From NCBI RefSeq assembly GCF_003264855.1, contig NZ_NFZS01000001.1, forward strand, positions 2,356,001 through 2,420,000: DNA of 64,000 bases, in the 5' to 3' direction. Both the position numbers and the translations under genes were made by a program. The first letter of the stretch is position 1. Each line of letters starts with the position of its first letter. Origin of the DNA: Dyella jiangningensis. Its GTDB lineage: Bacteria; Pseudomonadota; Gammaproteobacteria; Xanthomonadales; Rhodanobacteraceae. Below the pieces are notes generated by a model. It saw only the letters and a program-made list of their open reading frames with translations. It ran no database searches and was not told the origin of the DNA. This document shows, one piece after another, positions 4,974 through 31,517 of the stretch.

Positions 4974-4985
4974 CGCATTATTTCC

Positions 4986-6023: not shown

Positions 6024-6082
6024 CGGGACGCACGGCCGTTCATCACGCGGACCAGCGGTCGCCCAATGGCCAGTGCTTTCCC

Positions 6083-6511: not shown

Positions 6512-6574
6512 CGGGGCCGGTCGAGCCAGGGCAACCCGGTCTGAGGCTCGCCGCGGGTTGTCCCCGGGCTGTTC

Positions 6575-6601
6575 AAGCCGGCCGCATATGGCGGCCGGCT
6601 T
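6575..6601 (-). terminator. terminator of the giant autotransporter gene
   Basis: AAGCCGGCCGC (6575-6585), a five-base loop and GCGGCCGGCTT (6591-6601) form an uninterrupted 11-bp stem 22 bp after the stop codon at 6624. Only a very short T run follows on the minus strand, so termination may be partly Rho-assisted. Confidence 0.65.
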
Positions 6602-6623
6602 CGGGCGTCTTCATGCAAGCTGC

Positions 6624-18600: not shown

Positions 18601-19439
18601 ACCGCCCCGCCGATATAGCCGATGCCACCCGTGAGATTGACGGTGCGGTTCGAGATCGTGCCTGACGACGAGAACGATCGCCCGTTGGCCAGATAGATCT
18701 GGTTGGCGGCATCACCCAGCGCCGCGTTACCGATCGTACCGATGCTGAGGTTGCCGCCGGTGACGTTGATGTTTCCGGTAAAGCTGTTGGCCGCGTTCAA
18801 GACCAGGCCGCCACCGCTGACGGTGAGGGCGCCGCCAAAGCTATTGCTTCCATTGAGCGTCAGCGTGCCGCCGCCGGCCGTGGTCAACCCGCCGGCGCTG
18901 GTGATCGGGGACGCGATGGTGCTGGCGCCGGTCGTCACCGTAATGGTCGGGCTCGCGCCACCGAGCGCCAGGCTGCCGCCCGTGAGCGAATAGCCGGTGG
19001 TCTGGAACGTGAGGTTGTGGGCCGTCATCGTCCCGCCCAGGGTCACCGTACCGGCGGTGCCGCCGAAGTAGGCATCGTAGAGGGCGGCGTTGTTCCAGGT
19101 GCTGTACGGACCGCTGGTGCCGTCGCTGTTCGGGCTCCAGAACGCATTGGTGGTGTCCCATGTACCGGTGCCGCCGTAACCAAGGGTCGTGCCGTTGACG
19201 TCCCAGTAGCGATCAACGGCGTACGCCGGTGCATGCAACGCCAGCAATGCGGTCAGGATGCCAAGCCGTAGTGGCCAGGGAGAGCTGGCGCTTGCGAAGG
19301 ACACGTGATCGGACGTGATGCCATCGAGGGCACGACGATCGATGCCACCGCAGCCCTTGCCGCGACGCGTCGCCAACTCGGACGCCACTACCCAGGTATG
19401 CAGCGCCCGGGACCAGATGACACGAAAAATGCGATTCAT
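6624..19439 (-). CDS. giant type Va autotransporter (4,271 residues) with ESPR signal and modular passenger
   Basis: The start is ATG 19439, chosen because MNRIFRVIWSRALHTWVVASELA is the extended signal peptide region (ESPR) of type V secreted proteins and AGGGGAGA lies just upstream. The signal peptide is ~74 residues (cleavage after APAYA). The passenger begins with RYWDVNG..GTGTWDTTNAFW. It continues with about 1,700 residues of passenger-associated repeats (TNTYTGxTxVxxGxL; nt ~19,100-14,100), then fourteen 130-155-residue modules (see repeat entry), each with a GDGDDTLTL-type and a GGAGxDT-type motif resembling RTX glycine-rich calcium sites. The last ~330 residues (nt ~7,620-6,624) are an autotransporter beta-barrel ending in VRVRW. 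Expected role: cell-surface beta-helix adhesin or aggregation/biofilm protein. Cysteines occur only in spaced pairs. It is 39 bp downstream of the HPt gene, so co-transcribed. Confidence 0.93.
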   Translation of the reverse strand: MNRIFRVIWSRALHTWVVASELATRRGKGCGGIDRRALDGITSDHVSFASASSPWPLRLGILTALLALHAPAYAVDRYWDVNGTTLGYGGTGTWDTTNAFWSPNSDGTSGPYSTWNNAALYDAYFGGTAGTVTLGGTMTAHNLTFQTTGYSLTGGSLALGGASPTITVTTGASTIASPITSAGGLTTAGGGTLTLNGSNSFGGALTVSGGGLVLNAANSFTGNINVTGGNLSIGTIGNAALGDAANQIYLANGRSFSSSGTISNRTVNLTGGIGYIGGAVGSLFYTGTGGLHVADGVSLTNNANNYLGQTQFTTQTGWSGSYNAFSSVADLGVASALGAPTTVANGTILIGPGGGQSLGANQVYYTGTGNSSNRNWQMNPGSYNGSAYLYNAGSGTLRLTGNIAGIGAGGHPIGFGAQSADMELLGVISANDTRTVTFSSNAGRTIRLGTANTFTGQAQIGGAGKVEASVLANAGVAGSLGAGTIYVNGGNLSYVGVGESTNKNWTLSNGSLNSDGTGALSLGGTVALGGTATLGGSFTGADNLISGVISGTGNLRSAGAATWVLTGTNTYTGSTIVDSGVLRAGTTDAFGASTSAQVNGGTLDLNDFDRTFSTLAGTGGTVDLGTATLTLQAATGTTATYAGNIIGSGGLTKLGASTQTLTGANTYTGATTIGGGVLALDFSPAGGPTSNIISGSSTLNMAGGRLNVVGAAGESDTQTFNGLNVTASNNTIDAKSGTGGSLTVNLGAITRTSGLINFNLPTSGNITTTNTTLGGWATVNGTDYAKVVGGNILAFTSLDYTNKDNAANWLGGEYITDSTGFFNTVSGTKQLAGLRYTAPKSTTVTVSPGQTLGVDGTIIVAPTVLNTNQVITGGMMTGANGGDLGIQQNSTGNFTVASQIVDNGTGTGFVKAGTGLVTLSNTGNSYTGATRVAQGTLAVSSIQNGGVASGIGASSAASSNLSLEGATLSYTGTGDTSDRGFTFAKSGAIIESGVQVTNASANLTLSGLVSSPDGANFLKSGPGTLTLANPANAFTGIVTVSGGLLSATTLSNGGQASSIGAGSSASANLVLNGGGLQYTGATTSTDRGFTLGASNGTVDVSNAATTLTVSGIVAQQAGGNRALTKNGAGTLVLSGINTYTGPNTVNAGVLRAGSTQAFGAPSTAATMTLANAAGVLLDLNNFNNTIGPLNGGGVNGGNVTLGSATLTIAGGNGNYSGVISGTGGVTRTSGGTQTFNGCNNTYTGVTSLQGASITTDCLANGGQASGIGASSAASTNLVFNNAVLTYTGGSIAIDRGFQLQANIGAIGVSNAASTLEFSGAVIGTGWFRKDGPGTVVLSGTNTSTGNTQVTGGILRAGTTNAFGPSGNMTLDNTAGVLLDLNGFNTAVTSLIAGGANGGNVALGNATLTILDGANQTYSGVISGSGNVVKNGSGNQRLAGCNSSYTGPTTVNAGILSVDCLANGGLNSSIGASTSDPSNLVINGTLNYVGVGSSTDRQFTLGTSGGTITSAGTGIVQFTNTGAVVLAGSNVARTLTLTGANTGDNLFSGQLNDNGAGVTSLTKSGTGTWRLSNANSTYTGITRISGGVLSVDQMANGGLASSIGASSNAAANLVIGNGSTLRYTGAGDSTDRQFTLDTGVTYIESSGTGALQFTNTGTVALLGTNAPRTIALGGTNTGANTMGGAIANNGTGATTLAKNDSGTWILTGNNSYTGNTVINNGNLMIGNGGTTGNAGAGNVIVDSPTSTLSLNRSDTFTFSGTLSGPGTLAQVGTGTSVLTSANNQIGATTIGAGTLQVNGALATPTVGMTGTSALTVNGTLQAAGGTQTTLSGDAGAQTVTVGAGATLLASGDLGDGSDVVDVRGTLNTGTGSLGLGNGDDTLILHDGAQMLGGGVNASGGNGTDTLVVDTALGYTLDGGAIDTFDVLTKQNTGTLTLTGSQAFGAGTHIDGGALDVAGTMATPSISMADNTALNVDGSINAGANPALITGSAGSNTISVGSTGILAANGDLGDGNDAVTLAGELDTGTGTLALGAGDDVLTLQSGALITGAGVDGGAGASDRLVLDSASGLVLDGTQTTGFEFLQKDNVGLAIVTGAQSFSGGTTINQGALTLAGDITTPSVTMADDTTLNVNGSLQAASGVATTITGSAGSNTVTVGAGGTLLANGSLGAGNDVLDVAGTLDTGTLSLDLGDGDDTLTIHEHTNIIGTVTAGAGNDTLDTHIDTVADMGAVQGFETLAKTGTGVLNINGPLSSDFNTVNVSAGTLNVTAAGSVVGAPGIPLTTTVANGATLNVDGSYGCSAENDAMTVAGTVSGSGTIDLCGGDDTLTLQDGAVLNNTISGGTGTGDTLVLDNSGSLTFDASRTTNFELLQKDNTGTATLTGTQSFTGGTAINGGTLDVAGTLQTPTVDMADNTILNVSGSLSAGAGTPAQINGSAGSNTVSVAAGDTLLANGDLGAGVDTLDVAGTLDTGGGVFSLGDGDDNFVVHDGTQVIGTIDGGAGLDTRTYAINTTANLGALLNFEGVTKTGTGVLNVNGPGATDLQDVQVLEGTMNVAAGASIVATSGSSLATTVATGATLNVDGNYGCGAGDDTMTVSGNVTGNGIINLCGGDDTLTLNDGANLSLAHPIDGNAGTADKVVLNNNSAMTLDAGQVTNFELLQKDGAGEATLTGAHSFSGGTMLNDGTLTVAGTLQTPTIAMSDDTVLNVNGMVGGAGGTNAVITGSAGANTINVGTGAVLVASGDLGGGSDVLDVAGTLVTQGGVLSLGDGSDTFTIHDGTTVLGTVDGGAGLDTFNPDINTSANLGALTNFEILTKTGTGVLNVTGPGQSSFESVNVRDGTLNVGAAGGITGVQNATVANGATLRLDGNLSFTAGNDSLTVAGTVAGNGVLDMGDGNDTFTIQDGADLSGLSSPVSGGAGNDTFVADLAGSAVLGGAVNFETLTKTNTGTLHINGPAMSAFTTVNVDGGMLDVGVAGSLSGVQMATVAHGASLNVDGSVVFTPGADTFVVAGNVSGLGSINMLDGDDNLIIKDGADLSGLTTAIDGGAGNDTLTADIAGTAVLGGATNFETLTKTNTGKLTVAGPASSDFTTVNVDGGTLDVGMAGSLNGVVTTTVANGATLNVDGNYNGSAGNDSMTVAGALTGSGTIAFGDGDDVLTLRDGADLSGFTGVLDGGAPSASDTVVLDNAQALTFGSGTVRNFEYLTKTNTGVATLVGNQNFIGGTTIDGGELAVTGNLSTPTVTMADDTTLTVAGTLNAGGTTPTAITGSSGVNTVNITGTALATGDLGAGADVLDVRGTLDTAGGVFALGDGNDSFVVHDGTVVNGIVDGGAGLDTRVYDINLTADLGALVNFEGVTKTGTGVLNINGPASTDLQEVSVLGGTMNVAAGASVVAAAGSSLTTVVAAGATLNVDGSFGCGNSADSMTVAGTVSGTGTIDMCGGDDTLTLQDGAVLATTISGGGHNAGDTVVLDNAGALTFDASRTTNFEFLQKNNAGEATLVGSQSFIGGTAINGGTLTVAGQLETPTMSLADGTVLNVEGTVQNTGATALVITGSAGANTVKVGEGGTLHATGSLGAGNDVLDVAGTLDTAGSILDLGDGDDTLTIHDNTHIDGTVQGGAGNDTFNADIATTANLGAVQSFEILSKTGQGVLNVNGPASSDFTTVNVREGILDVTAAGSIAAQNTTVSSGATLQVEGRYSGTNGDDTFTSMGKVVGAFDFGDGNDVVSFVGGDPSGVTALAGGAGNDRLSFGGLSLESKTLPTLTGWERVELNDASRLNLDSALDLQGGVLAIDGSSQLTAQAGAALGASVENAGLVDVGTNRLSISGDYTGNNGTLRVGVSGQNLSAGGLDVAGDVRGTTAVSFDSDGSKVSGAGKVSILVISSPNDNPNTAGTFVPAKTVDGAVRLDGSAFPWTFGQESDHNWYLNAQAGLLPEFPAYAVLPTLGVLMARQDDDLIHQRLAGIRDTEHLMCGNKPEQQRQAGVGLYDDCHGFWVAATGSNRDLGANPGFATSGSDAGMYVGFDYAGENQSGSGHFGAFLGYVHGNYMTTGANSTGMPVVGASRIRLDTPVGGWYTGLFWNNGLYLDTVVSGQRTRARVRTTDGFVQSLHGGSVTVSAKVGRRVEMDNGWSVEPSLQLVATQVHWNDVVDNGNRQLTFNNHWVGNARAGLRTEKMFTTDGGATIKPWVSIAMQDSLTHERNALQVLEPGEVGNGLALPNQDLGLALRVDAGVEAKLNKSVSLFGVLSATHELQGSKYREEAANLGVRVRW
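8140..14110 (-). repeat. fourteen tandem passenger modules of two types (A ~460 bp, B ~390-400 bp)
   Basis: Anchors of the form F-[ED]-x-L-x-K lie near 13653, 13181, 12720, 12320, 11857, 11454, 10993, 10604, 10220, 9818, 9364, 8964 and 8499. Type A runs from a [LV][QT]KxxxG anchor through GGTxIxxGTLxVAG, TPTxxMADxTxLNV, ITGSAGxNTV and LGAGxDxLDVAGTLDT. Type B runs from KTGTGVLNVNGP through FxTVNVxxGTLDV, VAxGATLNVDG and MTVAGTVSGxGTI. Reading N to C the order is A A A B A B A B B B A B A B. Each ends with a GDGDD motif and, ~20 residues on, GGAGxDT. Confidence 0.85.
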
Positions 19440-19478
19440 GAGCCCTGTCTCCCCTGATGGCTCCAATGGATGCGCTGA

Positions 19479-19859
19479 TCAGTCCGTTCGCCCTCTGGCG
19501 CGGACGCCCGCATACGTTGCGGCACGATCAAGCACTGCGCGGAGCGTCCCATGGGCGCTCCAGAATGTTTGGACGAACGCGTCGCCTTCGAACGCGTCGT
19601 GACCGGAATGCTCGATCGCATCCAGTGCATCGGCTGCCTGGTCTTCACCGATGAAGCGGCAGCCCCATGCCGTGCGATGTGCGAGTTCGCGCACGTGCAT
19701 CCATTCTCCGGCGACGACGGCGTGCTCCATCTGCCGGAGATCGTTGCTGACCATGTGGTGAAAGACGCACAGCACGACGCCGACCCGGCACACGTCATTG
19801 CCGAGCAATGCAGCCAGTGACGGATACACCGGACGCTCCTCATGACGCGTGGATTCCAT
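19479..19859 (-). CDS. HPt-domain phosphotransfer protein
   Basis: The 126-residue cytosolic protein fits a single histidine-containing phosphotransfer domain. It has an N-terminal helix (YPSLAALLGNDV), a second helix with FHHMVSNDLRQMEHAVVAGEW, and the signature helix RELAHRTAWGCRFIGEDQAADALDAIE. There His61 occupies the phospho-acceptor place of the 'aHxlkGsa..iGa..La..c..lE' pattern. AAGGGA precedes the ATG at 19859. No receiver or kinase domain is attached, so it should relay phosphate from a hybrid sensor encoded elsewhere. Only 39 bp separate it from the autotransporter, making an HPt-autotransporter operon, which is an unusual pairing. An RcsAB-box-like site lies 100 bp upstream. Confidence 0.75.
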   Translation of the reverse strand: MESTRHEERPVYPSLAALLGNDVCRVGVVLCVFHHMVSNDLRQMEHAVVAGEWMHVRELAHRTAWGCRFIGEDQAADALDAIEHSGHDAFEGDAFVQTFWSAHGTLRAVLDRAATYAGVRARGRTD

Positions 19860-20428: not shown

Positions 20429-21241
20429 CTATACCACGCGTACGCCCCGAATGTTCGATGGCGCGTGGCGCCAGAACGCGTCGTTCTCGAAACGCCGAAA
20501 GATATCCGGCGGCAGGACCGTCTCGCGTCCGCGTGCCTGCACCTTTGCGGCAACGGCATGCAAGCCCGGCATGCCGGTGCGATCATCGAACGCGCCCACA
20601 TCGAAATGCACGTTGTCGAAATCGTGATTGAATGCCGGCTCACCGACGAAATCGTAGACGGCCGCCATGGCCATGGCGGGATCTCGCACCAGCGTTTCGT
20701 ACTGCAGCAGCATCAGGTGGGGCGCATGCTCGCCAAAGAACGCATCCTTCAGCGCATTGTAGGAGTAACCCAGGATGCCCTCGCCCGTGGCGAACCCCTC
20801 GACCCGGTTGTAGATGGTGCCGCGCGTGTCGAAGTTGACCATGAAGGAGGGTCGCAAGGTGTTCTTCTGGACCGCACGCTCAAGGCTGTCGACGATCCAT
20901 GAGACATGCCGAACGCAGGCAATGATGCGGTAATCAGGAAACAGTCCGCTCAGCACCGGCAGCTTCGCGCACCATGTACGGCTGGTATCGAAGATGACGC
21001 TTGCCGTCATCTCCTGACCGTAATACCCGTCGAAAAGCCCGCGCAGGACACGCCGCCGTTGTTCGTTCGTGATGAAGGTGGACAGCTCGTTCCGGTCACT
21101 CATCTCGCCCAGCATCGCGTCGACCATGCCTGCGAGCGGACTGCTCATGTGCGCGTGAAACCGGGGGTTCTGCCGCAGCAATGCAGCCAGCAACGTGGAG
21201 CCAGACCTGGGCAGGCCCGAGATGAAATGAATGGAACGCAT
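20429..21241 (-). CDS. PAPS-dependent sulfotransferase
   Basis: This is a 270-residue cytosolic enzyme. The start at ATG 21241 is supported by AAGGGGAA six bases upstream and by the N-terminus MRSIHFISGLPRSGSTLL, the 5'-phosphosulfate-binding P-loop at residues 8-18. RIIACVRHVSWIVDSLERAV is the 3'-phosphate-binding region with its Arg and Ser. The C-terminal half has LMLLQYETLVRDPAMAMAAVYDFVGEP, standard for the sulfotransferase_3 family. It would move sulfate from PAPS to a hydroxyl of a protein tyrosine, glycan or small molecule; the acceptor cannot be read from sequence. It is transcribed alone, bounded upstream by the terminator at 21408-21445 and by REP-like repeats on both sides. In Xanthomonas, RaxST-type enzymes sulfate secreted peptides, so an exported neighbour could be the target, but this is speculative. 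Confidence 0.88.
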   Translation of the reverse strand: MRSIHFISGLPRSGSTLLAALLRQNPRFHAHMSSPLAGMVDAMLGEMSDRNELSTFITNEQRRRVLRGLFDGYYGQEMTASVIFDTSRTWCAKLPVLSGLFPDYRIIACVRHVSWIVDSLERAVQKNTLRPSFMVNFDTRGTIYNRVEGFATGEGILGYSYNALKDAFFGEHAPHLMLLQYETLVRDPAMAMAAVYDFVGEPAFNHDFDNVHFDVGAFDDRTGMPGLHAVAAKVQARGRETVLPPDIFRRFENDAFWRHAPSNIRGVRVV

Positions 21242-21407
21242 GACTTCCCCTTCCAGTGCGCTGCTCGCGAAACAGCCTTCATTGCACATGATGCATCGTG
21301 CATCGAAGACTACCCGTTGCAGTGCCGTCAGTGTCAAGGCGCTCAGTGCCTCGCGTTGAACCTGTCGTTGGCGAGGGGCGCAGCCAAGGCACAGGATGAT
21401 CGTCACG

Positions 21408-21445
21408 AAAAAAAACGGGGCGAAAGCCATCCAGCTTTCGCCCCG
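21408..21445 (-). terminator. strong Rho-independent terminator (leftward)
   Basis: CGGGGCGAAAGC (21416-21427), loop CATCCA, GCTTTCGCCCCG (21434-21445): a perfect 12-bp stem followed on the minus strand by eight T (21408-21415). It ends the long leftward operon that starts at 26885 and closes with the LysR gene (stop at 21667), and insulates the sulfotransferase gene. Confidence 0.9.
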
Positions 21446-21666: not shown

Positions 21667-22590
21667 TCATGTGGGCGAAGCCATTCCAGGCAGCGAGACG
21701 GCAGGCACGCCATGCAGTCGCGAACCCAGGAACTCGATCAAGGCCTGCACCTTCTTCGAGTGCCGCCTGCTTTCCGGGTAGACCACTACGATCTTTTCCG
21801 CCGATGGCATGAAATCGACCAGTACTGGCTGCAGGCTGCCATCGGCAAGCGCGGCCTCGACGACATAGCGCGGCGTCAACAACAAGCCAAGCCCGGCCCT
21901 GGCAGCGTGGGCGAGCTGAATCCTGCAGGTGCTCCGCAGGCGCTCGCGCACGCGAAAGGCCCGCGGCTCGCCTTCGGCGAGCAATGTCCAGAAGCTTCCG
22001 GAACCTTCGTGGGTATAGAACAGCCCATCGTGGCCATCGAGGTCCGCCGGATGCTGCGGTCGGCCGCGCACATCCAGATAGTCCGAGCTGGCGCATAAGA
22101 CAAAGGGCACGGCGTTGAACGATCTCGTCAGCAGGCCCGAGTCCGGCTGCCGGCCTTCGCGGAACGCAACGTCGTAGCCTCCGACCTGGAAATCCGGCCG
22201 CAGGTCGTCCGCCTCCACGTCGAGCGTCAATGAAGGATGGATTTGCGCAAACTCCGCGAGCAACGGCGCCAGCACGGCGCTCAACAAGGCGGAAGAAACC
22301 GAAAGGCGAAGTCTGCCACCCAACACGTTGTTGTGGCCGTTGACGAATTCATGCGCACTTTCGATTGCTTCGAGGATGCGCGCACATTTGGCGTAATACA
22401 CCGCGCCCACCTCGGTCGGGCGGATGCGGTTGCCGGCGCGGTCGAGCAAGGCAACGCCCAGTACCTGTTCGAGGTTGCGAATGCGCCGGCTCGCCACGGA
22501 CTTGACCACCCCGAGGCGCAAGGCTGCCTGCGAAATGCTCGACGTCTCGACAGCTGCGACAAAGGTCGCCATGTCGGCGAATTCGATCAT
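21667..22590 (-). CDS. LysR-family transcriptional regulator
   Basis: The 307-residue protein has an N-terminal winged helix (residues 1-60: MATFVAAVETSSISQAALRLGVVKSVASRRIRNLEQVLGVALLDR) and a periplasmic-binding-like effector domain (about 88-295, with RPDFQVGGYDVAFREG and GLGLLLTPRYVVEAAL). The family usually activates a divergent promoter. Here there is no divergent gene; instead its ATG overlaps the stop of the kinase-like gene (ATGA), so it is the last gene of the GTPase operon. Its recognition helix S-V-A-S-R-R deviates from the common S-Q-P-A-L-S-R form, as in the DSBs-like subgroup of Xanthomonads. The effector is unknown. Confidence 0.88.
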   Translation of the reverse strand: MIEFADMATFVAAVETSSISQAALRLGVVKSVASRRIRNLEQVLGVALLDRAGNRIRPTEVGAVYYAKCARILEAIESAHEFVNGHNNVLGGRLRLSVSSALLSAVLAPLLAEFAQIHPSLTLDVEADDLRPDFQVGGYDVAFREGRQPDSGLLTRSFNAVPFVLCASSDYLDVRGRPQHPADLDGHDGLFYTHEGSGSFWTLLAEGEPRAFRVRERLRSTCRIQLAHAARAGLGLLLTPRYVVEAALADGSLQPVLVDFMPSAEKIVVVYPESRRHSKKVQALIEFLGSRLHGVPAVSLPGMASPT

Positions 22591-24104
22591 GGTGCACCGC
22601 CTTCATGATCAACGACCCACCCCGCAACGCCTTGCTCGACAGCGTCGCGCAGTGCTGCTGCGAGCACATCGCGCTGCGCGTCGGCAGCCACCACGACACG
22701 ACGATGCCTGCGCTGCCAGCCGCCCGCCACGGCACGCGCGTGGCGGTGCGACAGCAGAACAACGGGAGCGCCGGCGCCGAGATCATGCAGGCGATAAACC
22801 AGTCCGGCACCAGGCTCGCCGGCGAAAGTATCGGAGAGCACCACCAGGACCGTGCGCGCTTCGCAGGCCGCTGTCTCCAGTCCGGACAGGCTCGCCGCGA
22901 CATGTGCGTCCAGCCCCATATCGGCAAGCAATGTCGCGACGGTCCTCGACAAGACGGGATCGTCAACGGCAACCACCGCACACCTGCCCTGTCGCGCGCT
23001 CTTGAGCACGGCCGGCGCGGATGGCGGCTGGGGCAACAGGACGCGTACCCGCGAAAGCCCGGTGTCCTTGCTGTCCCTCTCGACGTCGAACTGGCCGCGC
23101 AGTGCCCGCACCAGTCGATGGCAGGCGCGCAAGCCCCACGGTACGCCTGCCTGCGCGGGATCGGGAAGGCTTGCGGTATCCGCATGCCAATCGACATGCG
23201 CATCGATACTTATCAGCAGGTCGCCGCCTGGCGTATCCAGCCGCACCACGACACCCGGCTTGCGCGCCCCGTCCAGCGCAAGCGTGATGAGCGTGATGAG
23301 CAATTGATACACGCGCGGATAATCCATCTCCGCTGCGGCGGACTTTCCGGCGTCGGAGGCGACCTCGATGACGAGGTGACGGCCTTCGTCCATGCTGAAA
23401 AGTCGCTTCAGCTCACCAGTGAGCGCCTTCAATGCGATGGGCTCGGACGTACTGGATCCCTCGGCGCGTGCCCGGCTCCCTCGCAACAAGTGACCATAGT
23501 TGAGCAGTTGCGCTTCAAGGTAGACCGCCGTGCGCTGGATGTAGCCAAGGGCGCTCATCGCCTCCGGATGTTCGGCGCAATAAGGGGCAAGTACCCGCGC
23601 GTGGCCAACCAGTGCATCCAGCCTGGCGCGCGCATCATCCGAGATGCTCTCCAGCAGGCCAACCCGCCGCCGCAACGACTGCTCTCGCTGCTCCTGCTGG
23701 CGCAGCTTATCCTGGTGTTCCTTGTCCTTCGCGATGAGCTCTCGCTTGAGCCGTTGACCGGCAAGCGACGCCTCGTTTTTCATCTGCTGGAGTTCGCGCG
23801 CCTCCAGCACGCCAGCGGTGGCATCGAGCAGCACGAGATGCCGGAGATGGCCTTCGGGCACGACATGTACGTCGGCGTACCTGCCCGGCGAGAGTTCCAC
23901 GGCACGCAGGAGTGGCGCGGCATCGCCCTGCCCCACCAGCAGGTCGCACAGAAGGCCGAGCAAGCTTTCACTGTCGTCCGCACCGGTGAAATAGGCCAGG
24001 TCGCCGAATGTATCGACCATGGTTTCGCCGTCGAACGTGACTACTACCGGTGCCTGCGCCTGCGGCAGGTCCGATGCGAAGCGGGATGAGCCTGGCCCGG
24101 TCAC
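22587..24104 (-). CDS. degenerate histidine-kinase/receiver protein linked to a small GTPase
   Basis: The start is GTG 24104, overlapping the stop of the GTPase gene (GTGA). The product is 505 residues. Residues ~15-110 form a PAS-like sensor fold (VELSPGRYADVHVVPEGHLRHLVLLDATAG), a type often found with small bacterial GTPases. A coiled coil follows (about 112-160), then a DHp-like helix pair in which no phospho-His is present (ESISDDARARLDALVGHARV). Next is an HATPase-like fold lacking the Asn of the N box (LITLITLALDGARK). The end (about 400-505) is receiver-like, keeping the VDD acidic pair but not a clear phospho-Asp or the Lys. It is soluble. Probably a signalling scaffold or pseudokinase reading the state of the GTPase; that role is inference. 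Confidence 0.65.
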   Translation of the reverse strand: MTGPGSSRFASDLPQAQAPVVVTFDGETMVDTFGDLAYFTGADDSESLLGLLCDLLVGQGDAAPLLRAVELSPGRYADVHVVPEGHLRHLVLLDATAGVLEARELQQMKNEASLAGQRLKRELIAKDKEHQDKLRQQEQREQSLRRRVGLLESISDDARARLDALVGHARVLAPYCAEHPEAMSALGYIQRTAVYLEAQLLNYGHLLRGSRARAEGSSTSEPIALKALTGELKRLFSMDEGRHLVIEVASDAGKSAAAEMDYPRVYQLLITLITLALDGARKPGVVVRLDTPGGDLLISIDAHVDWHADTASLPDPAQAGVPWGLRACHRLVRALRGQFDVERDSKDTGLSRVRVLLPQPPSAPAVLKSARQGRCAVVAVDDPVLSRTVATLLADMGLDAHVAASLSGLETAACEARTVLVVLSDTFAGEPGAGLVYRLHDLGAGAPVVLLSHRHARAVAGGWQRRHRRVVVAADAQRDVLAAALRDAVEQGVAGWVVDHEGGAP

Positions 24105-24604
24105 GACACTATCTTCCCGGCCAAGGCTTTGAACGCCTCCTCCACGGATGCGCCCGTCTTGGCGCTTACCTTGAACAATGGGAGCGTGCGCCCCGCCTGG
24201 GCCAACGTTTCGGGTGAAAGCTCCCATCGATCAGCCAGGTCGAACTTGTTGATCATCAGCACGGCCGGCAGTTCGCTGCCACAGGTTTCGCAAGCCTGCA
24301 GCCAGAGGTCCAGGGCGCTGGCAAAGGTGCTGTGCCGCGTACCATCGGCCACCAGCATCAGGCCGTGCGCTCCGCGCACGTAGTTGGCGCGCGTCTGGTC
24401 GATCATGCTCGACCCGGCGATATCCCACACCACCAGGCGCGCGGTGCGTTCGTCGTCCACGGGGACGGATCTGGTGTCGACCTTCACACCGACCGTGGTC
24501 AGGTAGGTGTCCGAGAATGTATTGCTTACGAAACGCGCAACCGTACTGGTCTTGCCGACGGCGAAGTCGCCGAGCAGGCAGATCTTGCGGGCTAGAACGT
24601 TCAT
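24101..24604 (-). CDS. Rab/Ras-like small GTPase
   Basis: The product is 167 residues from ATG 24604. All five G motifs are visible: P-loop GDFAVGKTS (12-20), switch-I Thr in TTVGVKV (~37), WDIAG (60-64), NKFD (119-122) and SAKTG (147-151). The position equal to Ras Gln61 is Ser, so intrinsic hydrolysis may be slow or need a partner. There is no lipidation site. It belongs to the bacterial Rab-like group distinct from MglA (no Arg-finger-type insertion seen) and should act at the inner face of the membrane. It overlaps both neighbours by four bases (ATGA with the OmpA-like gene upstream, GTGA with the kinase-like gene downstream), so the three proteins are made together and probably form one complex. 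Confidence 0.9.
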   Translation of the reverse strand: MNVLARKICLLGDFAVGKTSTVARFVSNTFSDTYLTTVGVKVDTRSVPVDDERTARLVVWDIAGSSMIDQTRANYVRGAHGLMLVADGTRHSTFASALDLWLQACETCGSELPAVLMINKFDLADRWELSPETLAQAGRTLPLFKVSAKTGASVEEAFKALAGKIVS

Positions 24605-26307
24605 GGAGTGGCGGACCCTGTCGGTTGCAGGTCGACGCGAATCAATGCGGCTCGCGTAATGCCGTGGAATTCCAGTGCGGACAAGGTATCCAGGTCGACT
24701 GCAATCCGGGCAGGTGGTCGAAGTACCGGCGTCAGGCGTTGCGCCAGCCATTCGGCCCTGCGCATGCGCAAGTCGCGATTCACCAGTGACCCACCCGGCT
24801 CGTCGGTCAGGCCGAATGCATGCAATTGCACGCTGATGCCCGCATTGGCGGCTTGCGCCTGTAATCGCTCGACATCGCCAAGCAACGATTGCAACGTCGT
24901 CTCTGCCGTCGCGTCAGGCGCAACTGCGGTATCGAAGCCGATACGCGCCGCTTCGATGCGCGCGACAAGCGAGCTGATCTCAGGCGAACCCCGATAGTCC
25001 AACTTGGACAAATCGACCCGCGTCACTCCCGGGATCATCTGGCTCCCGTGGCGCAGTCGATACCATTCCGCGAAGGGAACGGTGCCGGTCAGCTGCAACA
25101 CGCCCGCGGCATCGGGCCCGTTGATCAGCGTCGAATCCACAGCCAGCACGCGCGCAGCACGACGAGCTACCAGGGCTGGCTCCAACGAGAGATAGGGCCG
25201 CAGCGACCAGTCGATGTGCATTGCCTGGCCGGATGGCTTCGTGCCGGGGTTCCAGCGCGCACCAGGGTCGCCACCGGCAGGATCGTACAAGCCATCGATC
25301 CGCAATTCGCCGCGTCGTGAAGAAGAGGCCTCGAGCAGAACGAAGCCCGGCCAGCGCATCAGGTCGGCGCGAACGGCGTGAACCTGTTGCGACCATTGCC
25401 ATCCAAGCCATAGCCGATAGGACATCACGCCGAGCGCGGCGGCCAGCAACGCAAGCATTACCCAGCGCAGGCGTGGCTTGGCGCGCTCGCCCTCGACAGG
25501 CTGAGCCTGGTGAAGGTCCGCAAGCAGGTTGGGTTCGAGCAGGCCGCCGGCCGTATCAGGCGGCGCGGCAAGCCGCTTGCCATGACGTGCCTGCAGCTCC
25601 TCGCTCAGCTCGTCCATGCGAGTGGCGAGCGCCGAAGGTGGCACGCCCCTGACCAGGGCTGCCAGTCGCGCCTCGGGCCCGTCACTCACGAGCAACCGAT
25701 ATTCGCCGACGCTCGCCGAGCCGAGCTGGGCAGCACCCTCGGCGCGAACTGAATCGTGTACAAACTGCGCGATCGCGGTGAGCATACCTGCCACGGCGTC
25801 GGCATCGATGTCCGGCACGCCCGGAGCAGACAGGTGATCAAGCAACAGGCCGCTCTGATGCTGGATCAGGAACAGATGTTCGACGCGGTAGTGCAAGCGC
25901 TGCCGCAATACGACCTGGGCGTACGGCACACCGGTCCGCCAGGCCTCGAACCGCCAGCGCAGCACTTTCAGGCTCAACGTATCGGCCAGGGCCTGGTCGA
26001 GGTCATGCGCCATATGTCGCAACGCCTCGACCAGCGCACGACGGATGGCGGGGCCGATCACGGGAAATACGGCATGCACGACGGCCTCGGGCCTTCGGCG
26101 CACCGCGACTTCCAGCGATTCGGTGGTGGATTCGGACAGTGCGCGTGCAAGGCGTGACGCGCCCCCGGTGCGATTGGCCGATTCGATGCTCTCGGCCAGT
26201 GTCTCGGGCAACGCGTCGAGACGGCGGTCGATGCCATCCAACCGCTGCTGCTCGTCATCCAGCAACAGCAATCGAAGGTTTTCATACTCGCCGCGCATGG
26301 CGCCCAC
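24601..26307 (-). CDS. OmpA-like transmembrane partner of the small GTPase
   Basis: The 568-residue protein has three parts. Residues 1-280 are cytosolic and helical, with the stretch VFPVIGPAIRRALVEALRHM ... WRFEAWRTGVPYAQVVLRQ ... VEHLFLIQHQSGLLL, a domain I recall from uncharacterised cyanobacterial and proteobacterial OmpA-family proteins. Residues ~281-302 are one membrane helix (VMLALLAAALGVMSYRLWLGW). Residues ~420-568 are periplasmic and end with an OmpA/MotB-like peptidoglycan-binding fold (FGLTDEPGGSLVNRDLRMRRAEWLAQRL). It could tie the cytosolic GTPase to the cell wall. No signal peptide; N-in topology is predicted. The upstream coiled-coil gene ends two bases before its ATG. Confidence 0.75.
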   Translation of the reverse strand: MGAMRGEYENLRLLLLDDEQQRLDGIDRRLDALPETLAESIESANRTGGASRLARALSESTTESLEVAVRRRPEAVVHAVFPVIGPAIRRALVEALRHMAHDLDQALADTLSLKVLRWRFEAWRTGVPYAQVVLRQRLHYRVEHLFLIQHQSGLLLDHLSAPGVPDIDADAVAGMLTAIAQFVHDSVRAEGAAQLGSASVGEYRLLVSDGPEARLAALVRGVPPSALATRMDELSEELQARHGKRLAAPPDTAGGLLEPNLLADLHQAQPVEGERAKPRLRWVMLALLAAALGVMSYRLWLGWQWSQQVHAVRADLMRWPGFVLLEASSSRRGELRIDGLYDPAGGDPGARWNPGTKPSGQAMHIDWSLRPYLSLEPALVARRAARVLAVDSTLINGPDAAGVLQLTGTVPFAEWYRLRHGSQMIPGVTRVDLSKLDYRGSPEISSLVARIEAARIGFDTAVAPDATAETTLQSLLGDVERLQAQAANAGISVQLHAFGLTDEPGGSLVNRDLRMRRAEWLAQRLTPVLRPPARIAVDLDTLSALEFHGITRAALIRVDLQPTGSATP

Positions 26308-26309
26308 GT

Positions 26310-26885
26310 TTATGGAAGGTCCAGCGTTCCACGCAGGCGCATGGATAGCTCCGCCATCATGTCCGCAAGGTCTTCCCGCCCGAGCTTGTCGCCGCGCAAA
26401 GCATCGCGCTCAGCCGACAGTGCCTCGCGCAATGTCCTTACCGCGGCATCGAGATTCGACTGGAGCTGCGTTGCCACCTCTCGGCTTCGCGCATCGTTGC
26501 GCCCCACGTTGGCTTCGACCTGTTCGATGGCCGCGACCCACTCGCCACGTTGCGTGCGCAACGCCTGGCTGCCTCGGTGATCCAGATCCTCGATGGCTGC
26601 CGCTCGTGCAGCGCCCTCCTGGCGCAGCTGCATGGCAAATTTCTCGGCACCCGCCTCCAGGCGTTCTTCGATGGCGGCCATGCGGCGGCCATGCTCGTTT
26701 TCCACTCGCTCGATCTCTGCCTTGAAGCGAGCTTCCAGTTCCTGGAAACGCCGGTCGTATTCGCGGATGAGACTGCCGAACAGGATGTCGCGGACCTGGT
26801 CCATCTTCCTGTCTTCGGTGATCGATGATTCCACGACCGGCGCTACTGCGGGTGGGTCGGCGACAAACCTTTTCTTCGTATTCAT
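26310..26885 (-). CDS. coiled-coil protein, first gene of the GTPase operon
   Basis: The 191-residue cytosolic protein (start ATG 26885, weak GAG ribosome site) has a short Pro-rich head and a long amphipathic helix from about residue 30 to 150, rich in Glu/Arg/Ala (FQELEARFKAEIERVENEH and similar). This is a continuous coiled coil, ending with DLADMMAELSMRLRGTLDLP. I do not recognise a named family, though similar 'fibrinogen-like' coiled-coil proteins precede OmpA/GTPase genes in other bacteria. No membrane segment. It is likely a structural or adaptor subunit of the same complex. An RcsAB-box-like site lies 113 bp upstream of its start. Confidence 0.75.
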   Translation of the reverse strand: MNTKKRFVADPPAVAPVVESSITEDRKMDQVRDILFGSLIREYDRRFQELEARFKAEIERVENEHGRRMAAIEERLEAGAEKFAMQLRQEGAARAAAIEDLDHRGSQALRTQRGEWVAAIEQVEANVGRNDARSREVATQLQSNLDAAVRTLREALSAERDALRGDKLGREDLADMMAELSMRLRGTLDLP

Positions 26886-27057: not shown

Positions 27058-27684
27058 TTACTCGACCAGAAAACTCAATCCGTGGTTATTGAGGAATGCG
27101 CCGATTTCAGCTTTGGACCGCAAGCCCAGTTTCCTGAACGCGTTGTACTTATGCGTGGAAACAGTCTTGTAGCTGCGGTGACTGTCGATCGCGAGCGCCT
27201 GCATGTTCTCGCCTCGGGCCAAGGCCAGCATGATGCTGCGCTCGGAGCTGCTGAGCCTGTTCCATGGGTGATTGCGGGCTGCCTCCACGTCAATCGAAGG
27301 ATCGATGAACGTCTGGCCCGCCACGACGGCACGGATAGCATCGATAGCCAGCTGAGGTCTGCTGGATTTGGACACATATGCCTTGGCACCCTGGTCCAAT
27401 GCCGTCAATGCCAAGTACGGGCTCGAGTTGCCCGTGTAGACGATCAGCTTCGATGACGGATCAGCATCTTTGATTGCCCTGAGGAGCGAGATTTCCTTGG
27501 ACGGCCCGGACATGTCCGGCTCAAAGATAAGGTAGTCGTAGCAGGCTCCTCTCAGGCGTTGCAATAATCCATGAGCCCCGCGAGCCGTATCTATCCTGGA
27601 AATCCCGTCTCGGAATGCAACACGCAGCATTTCAGAGAGCGCGACAAGAATGATCGGGTGAACATCGGCAATCAGGAACCTCAT
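27058..27684 (-). CDS. RcsB/BvgA-like response regulator with a non-canonical receiver
   Basis: The 208-residue protein starts at ATG 27684, behind a strong GGAGGAGG. The receiver domain (1-120) begins MRFLIADVHPIILVALSEML, close to RcsB's IIADDHPIVL but with Val in place of the second acidic residue. The phospho-acceptor position is Glu55 (YLIFEPDMSG against RcsB's LITDLSMPG). Thr in VYTGNSS and Lys in YVSKSS are kept. The C-terminal LuxR-type helix-turn-helix (~145-205) has LSSSERSIMLALARGENMQALA ... YKTVSTHKYNAFRKLGL. A Glu at this position often imitates the phosphorylated state, so it may be active without a kinase. It is read separately from the downstream GTPase operon (173-bp gap) but in the same direction. 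Confidence 0.88.
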   Translation of the reverse strand: MRFLIADVHPIILVALSEMLRVAFRDGISRIDTARGAHGLLQRLRGACYDYLIFEPDMSGPSKEISLLRAIKDADPSSKLIVYTGNSSPYLALTALDQGAKAYVSKSSRPQLAIDAIRAVVAGQTFIDPSIDVEAARNHPWNRLSSSERSIMLALARGENMQALAIDSHRSYKTVSTHKYNAFRKLGLRSKAEIGAFLNNHGLSFLVE

Positions 27685-28249
27685 TGCCCCTCCTCCGGAA
27701 TCCCTACCTGGATCGGCGCCACTCCCTTGCCGATCCTGGAACACTCATCCCTATCAACGTAACTGCATCCGTCGCCTGGACGGTCTTGCACCCGCACTGT
27801 CGCGCTTCATTCTGCCTTTGGCCGTATGGAAGATGTTGCTTACTCACCCACCCATCTCGGGGGGTGGCATCTTCAGGCTCGGCGGTTGCGCCGCGTGTGC
27901 CTGACCCGGTGCCTGGTGCACGCCATGCGTCAGCGCTAACGCTGTATTTGGCCGCCTATCATTCCGCTGGTGGCTTTGCCTTGGCTCGCCCTTCCATTGC
28001 GCCGGCACTCTTCATGGGAAAGCCCAACGCCTTTGTCGTAACCCTGTTCCGAATGCCGCTATCGTGGCTTTCGCCCCCGCCTCACCGGAATGCCGCCTCG
28101 TAAAATCTTACAGCCGGAGCTTATCATTCGGCGGTCTGCTGGCAAGGTGCAAGCACCGTGACCGAGGGGAACAATGGCCGTAGGCCGTGCAGGAGCATCC
28201 ATGGCGGAAACGCGGATTTGAGATACGCACACGTGACATCCATCAGCCG
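27685..28249. other. divergent intergenic region between two regulators
   Basis: 565 bp with no convincing gene. It carries the divergent promoters of the RcsB-like and MalT-like regulator genes and a TAAGATTTT-type site at 28099-28112. A GTG at 28187 could extend the MalT-like protein by 21 residues, but the extension lacks family similarity. Confidence 0.5.
28099..28112 (-). promoter_or_regulatory. weak RcsB-type half site / inverted repeat
   Basis: Plus strand contains GTAA-AATC-TTAC; the minus strand reads TAAGATTTTAC, sharing nine bases with the sites at 19960 and 26999. It lies ~140 bp upstream of the MalT-like gene. Weaker than the other two. Confidence 0.3.
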
Positions 28250-30910
28250 ATGACATCCCCCGAGTTGATCCTCAAGACCACGCCACCTCGCTTGCTGAGC
28301 GGAGTGGTAAAACGTGACCTGGTTCACTCTTTCTGGACCTCCGCCCGAGAGCGATCGGCCATCGTGCTGGCCGCACCTGCCGGCTTCGGCAAGACGACTG
28401 TGCTACTGCAGTGGCGGTACCAATGGATGGAGCATGGGGCCCGTGTGGCCTGGTTGAACGTCGATGCCCAGGACGAGCCGGTGCGCTTTGCCCTCGCTTT
28501 GCTGCACGCCCTCGGCAACGCCAGCGGTGCGGTGGTTTTCAGTACGCTGGCCGCCCAGTGCGAGAACAAGGCCGAGCAAGGCATGGCCATCCTCACTGCG
28601 CTGCTGGGAGAGGTTGCGTTGCTCCGTACCGAGATTGTGCTCATGCTCGACGACGCAGAGCGCCTTCCCGACGTTACGCTGCGCACCTCTTTGTCCTACC
28701 TCCTTCTAAACGCGCCCGCCAATTTGCATGTGGTGATCGGTTCAAGAGCGGCATTGCCGCTCCCGATCTCAGAGATGGTGGCGAAAAAAAGCCTTGCGGT
28801 ACTGAAGGCGGAAGAGCTTCGTTTCCGACTCGAAGAATCCATCGACCTGCTCGACCGGCGCCTGGAGGGTCGGCTGAGCGTCCATGAATCAGCCAAGCTC
28901 CACGAGGCGGTGCAGGGGTGGCCCATTGGCCTTCAGTTCGCCATTTCCAGGCTCGAGTACGAAGACGATCTGGCCGCGGCGATAAATACCTTCTCCGCGA
29001 GGGAGGGTGATCTTCAGGACTATTTCGTCGATGCCCTGCTCCACGATCTGACGACGGCCGAGGCAGACTTCTTGGTGCAAATCGCCATCCTCGACTACCT
29101 GCAAGCCGAACTGTGCGAGGCGGTGACGGGTCGCGCAGAGGCAGGCAACCTGCTTAACCACTTCGCGAAGGAAACTCCGCTGATCATGGCGGGCCCTGAG
29201 GACTGGGTCCGTCTGCATCCCTTGGCCAGGGATTTCCTGTTGGAGCGCCTCGAACATCGCCCACGCACCGAGCAAGTAGAACTTCACGCCCGGGCTTCCC
29301 GATGGTTTGCCGGGCGTGAGCGCTTCCACGAGGCTGCACACCATGCATTGGCTGCTGGCGACGAAGCACAGGCGCAAGCTTATGCTGCCCGGTCACTCTG
29401 GCTGCTCGGCGCGCAAGGAAAACTCACGGAAGCGCGCCAATGGCTGGCGTTCATCCCGCCGCGACTCCTTGCAAGCGACATGTCACTCAAGCTGGTGGCC
29501 GCCTGGGTGCTTGCGCTTAGCGGGCGCAGCGACGAAGCGTTACGAATTGCCATGAAGGCAGCGGCTGATCCTGCAAGCACACCGCTCCGGCGCATGATCG
29601 CACTACGCGTGGCCGGCGGCGCTGCAATCTATGCGGACCGGCTGGGGCTCGTCGCTGAACTTGTCGCGCGATGGCCTACGGCGACTACGGTCGACGATCC
29701 TCTATATGTGGCGGCGCCGTTGAATGGAAGCGCAATTGTTGCGTTGCATGCGGGCCACAGCAGCAAAGTCCGTGAACTCGCTGCGCAAGTGCTCAAGCAC
29801 GGCGAGACTGGATCCATGCGCCTCGCTTCCGCTTTGGCACGAACCATGACCGGCCTCAGTCACCTTTGGGAGGGCAGCGCCTGTCAGGCCGAGGCGGTGC
29901 TTCAGCCCGCGCTGATCAAGACGGAAAGAGAGGAAGGTCGGCGTAGCACGATAGCCTGCAACTATGCCGCCGTACTCGCTGCCGCAATGCTGCGCCGTGG
30001 CCAGCCTGATGCGGCCCACGCCCTGCTGGCCGATCGACTGGATGTCATCGAGGAGGGGTTTCCCGACATCGTTCTGGTCGCCTACGACACGCTGGTTCGT
30101 ATCGCCCTCGACAAGGGCGATGAGCGACGTGCCCTAGCCGCGCTCGACAATCTCGACAGCTTGGCCAAGCGCAGGCAACTACCACGTCTTCAGCTGCACT
30201 GCGTGTCTGAGCAGGTCCGCATCCACGCGATGAGCCGGCGCAACGAAACGGTCTCGACGCTGGTGACAAACCTGGACGATCTCGCACCTGCGTTTCGACG
30301 CAAGGCCCACTTATCGTTTCTTGAGCACTATCTTCTGGTGGCCTCGACCGCCAAGGCATACGCAGCGTTCGCGCGCAATCATCTCGATGAGGCAGAACGG
30401 CAGTTGCAATGCGCCGATGCGCTTGCTCACCAGCTAGGGCGAAGCTATGACATGCAGGTGCTAAAGGTCCTTCGCGCGTTACTTGCGAAACAACGCGGCA
30501 CCACCGAAGCGGCCGCGCTGATGTCGGAGGCGATCGACCTAGCTCGCCTTGGGGGCAACGTTCGTCTGTTGGCTGATGCCCACCCTGACGCGACACGCGT
30601 GGCATGCGAACTGCATCTTCTATCCCCTGACGAACAGACCACCGGCCCGGAGGCGGTCGAAGCCACTTCCCCCTCGCCAGCCTCGTCTTCGGCCCCTCCT
30701 CCAGTGCAACAGGGACTCTTGACGGCAAAAGAAGCCGAAATTCTTCATCTGCTTAACAAAGGGATGCCGAACAAACTGATTGCACGAGCGCTGGGCATCA
30801 GCAGCGAGACTGTCAAATGGCATCTCAAGAACCTGTTCCAAAAACTGTCGGCCGGCACCCGCAGGCATGCGGTAGGCCGCGCACGACTTCTTGGCCTTGT
30901 CAGCGAGTGA
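28250..30910 (+). CDS. MalT-like LuxR-family ATP-binding transcriptional regulator (STAND/LAL type)
   Basis: I start the 886-residue protein at ATG 28250 (MTSPELILKTTPPRLL) because the family begins with a 'lLrtKl.pPrl' segment. The NTPase domain has Walker A APAGFGKTT (~42-50) and Walker B IVLMLDDAER (~130). The arm HPLARDFLLERL and a long TPR-like helical region (about 330-780: RFHEAAHHALAAGDEAQAQAYAARSL and many more helices) follow. A Pro/Ser linker leads to the LuxR helix-turn-helix (~822-885: LTAKEAEILHLLNKGMPNKLIARALGISSETVKWHLKNLFQKL). Such proteins are switched on by an inducer bound to the helical domain. It lies 607 bp upstream of, and in line with, the second autotransporter gene, which is a likely target. 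Confidence 0.9.
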   Translation: MTSPELILKTTPPRLLSGVVKRDLVHSFWTSARERSAIVLAAPAGFGKTTVLLQWRYQWMEHGARVAWLNVDAQDEPVRFALALLHALGNASGAVVFSTLAAQCENKAEQGMAILTALLGEVALLRTEIVLMLDDAERLPDVTLRTSLSYLLLNAPANLHVVIGSRAALPLPISEMVAKKSLAVLKAEELRFRLEESIDLLDRRLEGRLSVHESAKLHEAVQGWPIGLQFAISRLEYEDDLAAAINTFSAREGDLQDYFVDALLHDLTTAEADFLVQIAILDYLQAELCEAVTGRAEAGNLLNHFAKETPLIMAGPEDWVRLHPLARDFLLERLEHRPRTEQVELHARASRWFAGRERFHEAAHHALAAGDEAQAQAYAARSLWLLGAQGKLTEARQWLAFIPPRLLASDMSLKLVAAWVLALSGRSDEALRIAMKAAADPASTPLRRMIALRVAGGAAIYADRLGLVAELVARWPTATTVDDPLYVAAPLNGSAIVALHAGHSSKVRELAAQVLKHGETGSMRLASALARTMTGLSHLWEGSACQAEAVLQPALIKTEREEGRRSTIACNYAAVLAAAMLRRGQPDAAHALLADRLDVIEEGFPDIVLVAYDTLVRIALDKGDERRALAALDNLDSLAKRRQLPRLQLHCVSEQVRIHAMSRRNETVSTLVTNLDDLAPAFRRKAHLSFLEHYLLVASTAKAYAAFARNHLDEAERQLQCADALAHQLGRSYDMQVLKVLRALLAKQRGTTEAAALMSEAIDLARLGGNVRLLADAHPDATRVACELHLLSPDEQTTGPEAVEATSPSPASSSAPPPVQQGLLTAKEAEILHLLNKGMPNKLIARALGISSETVKWHLKNLFQKLSAGTRRHAVGRARLLGLVSE

Positions 30911-31517
30911 GATTCCTTCTAGGCGAGCGCGGCTTTGTCGTACCCGCAGATGCGGTCATCCTGCACCGGGACCGCCAGCGGTCAGCGCCTGCCCAATGCC
31001 TTCGAATTGCGCGCCACTGAGGGAGGACTATCGACGTTCAAGTCCACCGATATGCCAAAGCCCTGCGAGGTGCTCCGCGAGTGTCATGCGGGCGAAGAAA
31101 GCATGAGCGATCTCGTTTCATCAGCCACAAAGATGCAGCTGTGTATATCCCCAAAAAGGAATATCGGTGCGCGTGTGTCACCGTCAGTCATGGGCCGGCG
31201 CGCCGCCGTGGCGGCGCGGTAGAATCCACGCTGGACTTCAGGGGTCAGGGGGACTTGTGTCGCGATCGAATGATCGCTCATAGCTGATGGATCGGCTTGG
31301 CGCCGTGCAGGCAAATACCGTCTGAGCTGGCACGCGATCTTTCAGATCGAGTCGACATCCGCTAGCCGCCCAAATCTTCGCCGCATCAACGTGCCGGCGC
31401 ATGGCTACCGCCCACGCCATCTCCGGCACTTCGAAGCATTCACTGCTCTCTCAATCACGGAATGTGGCCTGGCAAGGATTCGCCGCCGGGCATCCGCCCA
31501 ACCAAACAGGGGACAAC
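30911..31517. other. intergenic region upstream of the second autotransporter
   Basis: 607 bp. It should hold the autotransporter promoter and possibly an operator for the preceding regulator. GATATTCCTTTTT on the minus strand (near 31152-31165) resembles the right half of an RcsAB box but lacks TAAGA. One questionable short frame is listed separately. Confidence 0.4.
30935..31222 (+). CDS. possible short hypothetical protein or gene remnant
   Basis: A 95-codon frame from TTG 30935 (or ATG 30950) with no good ribosome site. The segment LPNAFELRATEGGLSTFKSTD resembles a motif (NAF-LRpgE-gLSvf) seen in small uncharacterised bacterial proteins. The rest (CHAGEESMSDLVSSATK) is plain and the last 30 residues are basic. 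It could be a decaying gene overlapping the autotransporter's upstream region. Not a confident gene. Confidence 0.25.
   Translation: MSYPQMRSSCTGTASGQRLPNAFELRATEGGLSTFKSTDMPKPCEVLRECHAGEESMSDLVSSATKMQLCISPKRNIGARVSPSVMGRRAAVAAR

Follow-up and report, generated by a model that had tools for sequence, protein, structure and literature searches.

A Group 1 Rup-type GTPase operon of Dyella jiangningensis with a degenerate output kinase, a LysR gene and a predicted Roadblock domain

We analyzed a 64,000-nucleotide stretch of the Dyella jiangningensis genome (assembly GCF_003264855.1, contig NZ_NFZS01000001.1, positions 2,356,001 to 2,420,000), hereafter called the window. Its open reading frames (ORFs) include five minus-strand genes that abut without real gaps and encode, in order, a coiled-coil protein, an OmpA-like membrane protein, a Ras/Rab-like GTPase, a kinase-like output protein (gene 4), and a LysR-type regulator. 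Taken as a whole, these genes are best explained, at a probability of about 0.55, as a Group 1 Rup GTPase system that has been rewired, with its output moved from a phosphorelay to the LysR regulator.

Results and Discussion

A Group 1 Rup operon with conserved gene order

In the parts concerned with the Rup family, Wuichet and Sogaard-Andersen 2014 (PMC4316618) predicted a Group 1 Rup neighborhood from genomes. Besides the GTPase and a coiled-coil protein, the set has a protein in which an unknown domain is often combined with a membrane helix plus an OmpA domain. The remaining member is an output protein that carries an invariant Gln in its N-terminal region and is typically a diguanylate cyclase/phosphodiesterase (DGC/PDE) or a histidine kinase. 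There, the Rup GTPase is described as lacking the G3 Gln, which is perhaps supplied in trans; the Group 1 members are said to resemble the Rab/Ran/Ras/Rho group of eukaryotes very closely, and no Rup member is said to have been characterized by then. The window has the corresponding parts: its Rab/Ras-like GTPase has no G3 Gln, a coiled-coil gene is present, one gene encodes a protein that joins a membrane helix to an OmpA domain, and the output protein has a conserved Gln in its N-terminal region (Q106 or Q107). Unlike the published set, it has a degenerate output kinase and an additional LysR gene. Since the published description of the output enzyme reads “typically”, we regard the missing enzyme as the mark of a variant. 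The original prediction, made from the sequence of the window, knew of no characterized system with this set outside MglA-type polarity; the set had in fact been described computationally, and the statement holds insofar as we found no later experimental study of Rup systems in the open-access literature.

The GTPase matched Pfam Ras (8.5e-30), and its best matches in the PDB were Rab1 proteins. All of the motifs G1–G5 were present, with Ser65 at the place of Gln61, which confirmed the earlier reading of a Ras/Rab-type GTPase with five G motifs and a Ser at that position. Among the relatives, Gln occupied this G3 place in none of 82 aligned residues. Close GTPases on plasmids were found in five records, each below 60% identity.

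Re-reading of the ORFs and junctions also confirmed four tightly coupled genes with a 2-bp gap, an ATGA overlap, and a GTGA overlap. The proposed content of the first four genes therefore stood, but the fifth gene had been missed and the end of the unit at 22587 was wrong, as the LysR gene, joined to gene 4 by an ATGA overlap, is part of the unit too. The coiled coil of the first gene was called from its sequence and a family match, no coil predictor being used; the ratio of non-synonymous to synonymous substitution rates (dN/dS) of this gene was 0.07–0.08 in three pairs of relatives.

Scanning the OmpA-like family in one genome per species yielded at least 398 relatives, and the locus counts rest on the best 80 of them. 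The coiled-coil, OmpA-like, and GTPase genes occurred in that order in 71/80 loci. Six of the other nine were cut by the end of the locus or contig, and three (L092, L098, L114) had no GTPase gene behind the OmpA-like gene. The order was kept in records of several phyla; the titles among the relatives listed include Lysobacter, Pseudoxanthomonas, Dokdonella, Tahibacter, Acidobacteria, Gemmatimonadota, cyanobacteria, Planctomycetota, Desulfobacteraceae, and Verrucomicrobiota. The conserved order ruled out a chance cluster, and the co-occurrence check named with the original prediction thus came out in its favor. Three further observations concern individual loci. L114 encodes a 911-aa OmpA-like protein (4917–7652) with several BON-like-looking repeats. 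L175 (genome G298) carries a partial OmpA-like protein without a GTPase, and the system was possibly lost there. In L051 (~7868–8706), the GTPase gene is apparently split into two frames, and the kinase behind it is still open.

Within the window's order, an OmpA-like match at E ≤1e-90 was present in 68/398 genomes, counted from the match list; a looser order-wide tally of 397 includes unrelated OmpA domains. Of these 68 genomes, the window's, 11, and 38 were analyzed and 18 were left out, and two genomes with partial matches (G085, G298) were added. In 13 other genomes found from the GTPase side (E ≤1e-24), the OmpA-like gene was present in 11, and the GTPase gene was followed by a relative of gene 4 in all 13, so the GTPase and gene 4 form the firmest pair in these genomes. 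Recognizable OmpA-like and coiled-coil genes were absent in G050 and G060 and at the weaker second copies in G040 and G051, where an OmpR-type regulator, judged by eye, lies upstream.

Loss of the catalytic motifs in gene 4

Gene 4 carries Asp156 at the place of the phospho-accepting residue, which is His in all 15 other aligned rows. Its N, G1, and G2 boxes are missing as well, and the receiver has lost its Asp and Lys. The kinase motifs were intact in 15/15 of the other rows, which also kept most of the receiver motifs. In the predicted model, a helix spans residues 96–176, and the parts corresponding to the kinase and receiver retain a predicted fold. Searched alone, gene 4 gave no Pfam match above the cut-off. 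These losses of the phospho-His and the N, G1, and G2 boxes would exclude gene 4 from the active histidine kinases, with the fold kept in the model. They agree with the earlier description of a PAS/kinase/receiver protein without its phospho-His and HATPase Asn, although that description recognized the degeneration and not its lineage-specific character.

The loss of kinase motifs was common to the closest relatives, L057–L063 and L073 (Lysobacter, Pseudoxanthomonas, Lysobacterales), and, by motif search, to L160. None of nine sequences of this clade kept the G1 box, the G2 box, or the second Asn of the N box. Because the degenerate kinase is common to ten loci, we rejected the possibility of a pseudogene confined to the window. 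A class-wide search for the dead kinase at E 1e-60 returned the window's genome only (1/27).

Among the rows with a recognized N-domain, Q106 was present in 60/64 and Q107 in 59/64, and Gln107 was invariant in the nine aligned gene 4 sequences of the dead-kinase clade. In the second copies L053 and L054, the G2/G3 motifs of the GTPase are broken and the gene 4 relative has lost the Gln pair, while the kinase is intact and an OmpR-like regulator adjoins. This joint loss fits a Gln supplied in trans, though it represents a single lineage.

The 74 proteins encoded behind the GTPases contained HATPase_c (43), HisKA (39), receiver (34), HD (8), and nucleotide cyclase (3) domains; GGDEF and EAL, which the 2014 description mentions, were not among the 25 of 29 domain families listed for them. 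The Gln-bearing domain was fused to HD in L111 and L129 and to a class III nucleotide cyclase in L116, L126, and L130. In the cyanobacterial loci L091 and L124, it stands alone (131–133 aa) directly behind the GTPase, with a kinase-like ORF behind each.

A LysR gene tracks the dead kinase

A tblastn search with the window's LysR (E 1e-3, 95 loci) matched exactly eight loci, namely the dead-kinase loci L057–L063 and L073. In all eight, the LysR gene starts ≤65 nucleotides behind gene 4 on the same strand. We then counted LysR genes directly downstream in loci with at least 950 nucleotides of downstream sequence. Judging the kinase state by the N and G2 patterns, we found LysR in 9/9 dead-kinase loci besides the window, 0/50 intact-kinase loci, and 0/18 other loci, the last group including kinases whose G2 was missed by the patterns (at least L100 and L135). 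The count started from 112 distinct non-window loci (131 minus 19 duplicates), comprising 92 with a recognized gene 4 (15 too short downstream), 13 with a GTPase and no recognized gene 4, and seven without a GTPase call. L051–L054 were left out of the count, and tblastn gave no LysR match there.

The phylogenies point in the same direction. The OmpA-like proteins of the ten loci formed one clade with a Shimodaira–Hasegawa-like approximate likelihood ratio (SH-aLRT) of 100; L062, L063, and L160 had been added to the alignment for this tree. The LysRs of the ten loci also formed one clade, supported at 96/100 in a first tree, in which 11 of 24 comparison rows were on the wrong strand, and at 100/100 in the repeat, for which 22 comparison rows count and L183 and L202 are discounted, apparently being on the wrong strand. 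Among 12 genomes, the operon LysRs of five genomes besides the window's scored 214–250 bits against P0005 and other LysRs ≤159; in the six genomes of the intact-kinase type, no LysR exceeded 159 bits. By these comparisons, the LysR gene is the fifth gene of the operon, gained once and kept since.

Gene 4 matched RetS and DivL in profile comparisons and RetS also by fold. These non-canonical histidine kinases act through partners, RetS on GacS, and they resemble gene 4 in keeping the kinase fold; they differ in that gene 4 is encoded beside a small GTPase and a LysR regulator. The likeness suggests that phosphotransfer could continue through a partner, with gene 4 regulating another histidine kinase and LysR merely autoregulating the operon. 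LysR genes often control their own neighbors. Nevertheless, the presence of LysR tracks the loss of the kinase motifs, and we consider this explanation unlikely.

Somewhat less probable still is that gene 4 is decaying, the GTPase module having lost its output in this clade and LysR being an unrelated hitchhiker. The loss of the catalytic motifs and the gene 4 of L073, which ends before the receiver, would be expected from decay, as would the evolution of gene 4 being faster than in an intact pair. However, the gene 4 frames are open in all ten loci despite only ~24–33% identity to the window's (eight aligned), and the whole-gene dN/dS was 0.29 (L058/L063) and 0.27 (L061/L062), as compared with 0.055 in one intact-kinase control pair; domain bounds are unreliable for L061/L062 and L066/L069. 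The invariant Gln107 and the tight, same-strand placement of LysR, with the ATGA overlap in the window, also speak against decay. In the dead-kinase clade, gene 4 looks to be under constraint, evolving more slowly than neutral and faster than an active kinase.

A predicted Roadblock fold in the putative wall-binding partner

Searched alone, the window's OmpA-like protein gave no Pfam match above the cut-off, OmpA included. Pfam OmpA was matched in 5/11 family members at E up to 0.1 (best 5e-6), and a 70-row profile of the family matched OmpA/Rv0899 structures (best Rv0899, 6e-13). The alignment behind this profile left out six near-copies, L114, L130, L132, and loci that were too short. In it, R517 was invariant and D502 was present in at least 90% of the rows. 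These are the conserved Asp and Arg of the OmpA domain, which have a role in peptidoglycan binding in this domain family. The profile match and the two residues place the C-terminal part among OmpA-type domains, with putative peptidoglycan binding. The membrane helix has a hydropathy of 1.81 over 19 residues and lies within a helix at 278–317 of the predicted model. One membrane helix and an OmpA-type end following a helical cytosolic region had been foreseen; the predicted Roadblock-fold domain within that region had not.

The AlphaFold model built from the 70-row alignment had a mean predicted local distance difference test score (pLDDT) of 85.5 and a predicted template modeling score (pTM) of 0.54. 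Its residues 129–247 form a helix, two strands, a helix, three strands, and a helix, which is the topology of Roadblock/LC7 domains. A Foldseek search with the whole model placed MglB chains at ranks 1–9; the best, 1j3w, had an E-value of 8.8e-5 and a template modeling (TM) score of 0.63 on the target at 3.2 Å. The next matches include TRAPP, asgard Roadblock, and longin proteins, and BON and OmpA domains matched as well. Since Foldseek reports no query range, the placement on residues 129–247 follows from the topology. A Roadblock/MglB fold is thus predicted for the cytosolic domain that had been listed as “unknown” in the OmpA-like protein. Pfam detected no Roadblock (Robl_LC7) protein in the window's genome, while 24/61 genomes of the window's order had a match at E 0.01.

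The predicted fold brings the operon nearer to MglA than the original prediction could have known, since the partner now appears MglB-like. Both systems would pair a Ras-like GTPase with a Roadblock-fold partner. The window's GTPase, however, has no intrinsic Gln, its partner is membrane-bound and probably wall-bound, and a separate MglB (Robl_LC7) partner gene was not found in the window's genome by Pfam. A polarity module, in which the GTPase marks a pole or division site via a peptidoglycan-bound roadblock partner, draws on the MglB-like predicted fold and the Ras-type GTPase, but the outputs in relatives are signaling enzymes, and an apparent OmpR-type regulator is encoded in four loci that have no OmpA-like gene. 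We regard it as the least likely of the explanations. We found no support for polarity, although the loci were not screened for motility or pole proteins; what stands of the earlier proposal of an envelope-to-cytosol complex is one functional unit reaching from the cytosol to the cell wall, as supported by the conserved order, the helix, and the OmpA residues. The actinobacterial conservon (CvnA-D), in the parts of its descriptions concerned with gene content (PMC4316618; PMC13343842), likewise combines a small GTPase, a roadblock protein, and a histidine-kinase-like protein in one operon. In the window, the predicted roadblock instead shares one polypeptide with a membrane helix and an OmpA domain, and the GTPase is of the Rup type.

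Proposed mechanism

In the rewired Rup system that we favor, the OmpA-like protein would span the inner membrane once, bind peptidoglycan through its OmpA domain, and expose its Roadblock-fold domain on the cytosolic side, where it would meet the GTPase. The state of the envelope would alter how this platform and the coiled-coil protein hold the GTPase, thereby setting its GTP/GDP state. The GTPase would in turn act on gene 4 at its PAS-like N-terminal domain, and the Gln pair of that domain may complete a GTPase active site that has no Gln of its own. In relatives, the Gln-bearing domain is joined to an active-looking output, mostly a histidine kinase and also HD or a nucleotide cyclase. In the window's lineage, the catalytically dead kinase would be retained as an adaptor, and the signal would pass to the LysR encoded directly behind gene 4, so that the GTPase could control transcription without phosphotransfer.

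Several points weigh against this interpretation. The gain of LysR and the loss of the kinase share one ancestry, so the ten loci count as a single event in evolution. A scan of the sequences upstream of the operon, with L160 left out, revealed no LysR site in common. Kinase death is not uniform, as L059, alone of nine sequences, keeps the phospho-His. The faster evolution of gene 4 than in the intact pair also fits relaxed constraint, and the Gln-pair counts are limited to rows whose N-domain the model recognized. Within the genus, the system occurs in the window's genome only (1/20 genomes). The Roadblock assignment comes from a predicted model: Pfam found no Roadblock match in the window's OmpA-like protein or in the family members searched, and a profile comparison with nine roadblock proteins was weak (E 0.0071, probability 5%), albeit in the expected register. 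In the control for this comparison, 0/100 block-shuffled profiles scored as high, the best coming close (20.19 versus 21.04), and poorer roadblock sets, with wrong-frame rows or with four rows, gave E-values of 0.08 and 0.22. Overall, the gene set, its order, the lost motifs, and the link to LysR are seen in the sequences, and the Roadblock fold in a model only, whereas the signal sensed, the contacts, the parts played by the Gln pair and the adaptor, and the output through LysR are inferred.

We put forward the following joint proposal tentatively, as less likely than not: a wall-bound Roadblock platform would serve a Rab/Ras-like GTPase in several phyla, with a Gln pair completing the active site and LysR reached via a dead kinase. 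At the same tentative level, this platform could be a prokaryotic counterpart of Ragulator and TRAPP, the membrane-anchored roadblock/longin platforms of the Rag and Rab GTPases.

Operon features and surroundings

The coordinates of the operon are collected in Table 1, together with a NarL/LuxR-type response regulator encoded directly upstream as a possible extra part. This regulator was matched by tblastn (E ≤1e-3, 95 loci) in L057 (Lysobacter psychrotolerans) only, where it is also upstream of the operon.

Table 1. Features of the operon and its upstream neighbor in window coordinates.
Feature	Position	Strand	Remarks
Cytosolic coiled-coil protein	26310..26885	-	First gene; 191 aa
OmpA-like membrane protein	24601..26307	-	568 aa; GTG start; 2-bp gap after coiled-coil gene; helical N-terminus, predicted Roadblock-fold domain, one membrane helix, BON-like and OmpA-like periplasmic part
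Predicted Roadblock/MglB-fold domain	25567..25923	-	OmpA-like protein, residues ~129-247
Single membrane helix	25405..25461	-	OmpA-like protein, residues 283-301
Putative OmpA-type peptidoglycan-binding domain	24610..24942	-	OmpA-like protein, residues ~456-566
Group 1 Rup GTPase (Rab/Ras-like)	24101..24604	-	167 aa; ATGA overlap with OmpA-like gene
Gene 4, output protein	22587..24104	-	505 aa; GTGA overlap with GTPase gene; PAS-like N-domain, coiled coil, histidine-kinase core without catalytic motifs, degenerate receiver
Conserved Gln pair Q106-Q107	23784..23789	-	Gene 4, N-terminal region, start of long helix
Asp156	23637..23639	-	Gene 4, place of phospho-accepting His
LysR-type regulator	21667..22590	-	Fifth gene; 307 aa; ATGA overlap with gene 4
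NarL/LuxR-type response regulator	27058..27684	-	Directly upstream of operon; possible extra part

Near the operon, a plus-strand gene (28187–30910) encodes a 907-aa protein with a LuxR-type helix-turn-helix and weaker MalT-TPR and STAND/AAA matches. A sulfotransferase-like gene (20429–21430) and a gene whose small product matches Hpt below the threshold (19479–19859) lie on the minus strand. The same strand carries a 4280-aa ORF with passenger-like repeats (6624–19466), by sequence impression a giant autotransporter, and a 2179-aa autotransporter with Pfam ESPR, PATR repeats, and an Autotransporter beta-domain is encoded on the plus strand (31401–37940). Rfam matched nothing within the window, and no tRNA was detected in it; among 14 loci scanned, L059 alone has a tRNA, ~1.1 kb behind its LysR.

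Conclusion

A system of this kind was known from genomes. To our knowledge, the predicted Roadblock domain, the cyclase and stand-alone outputs, and the dead-kinase/LysR clade are new. If true, a Roadblock-fold domain in the wall-binding partner would give the GTPase a testable regulator and would remove an apparent difference from the MglA, conservon, and eukaryotic Rag/Rab systems. The clade that combines a dead kinase with a new LysR gene is a natural experiment in output rewiring and shows that the Gln-bearing domain was the part retained after the loss of catalysis.

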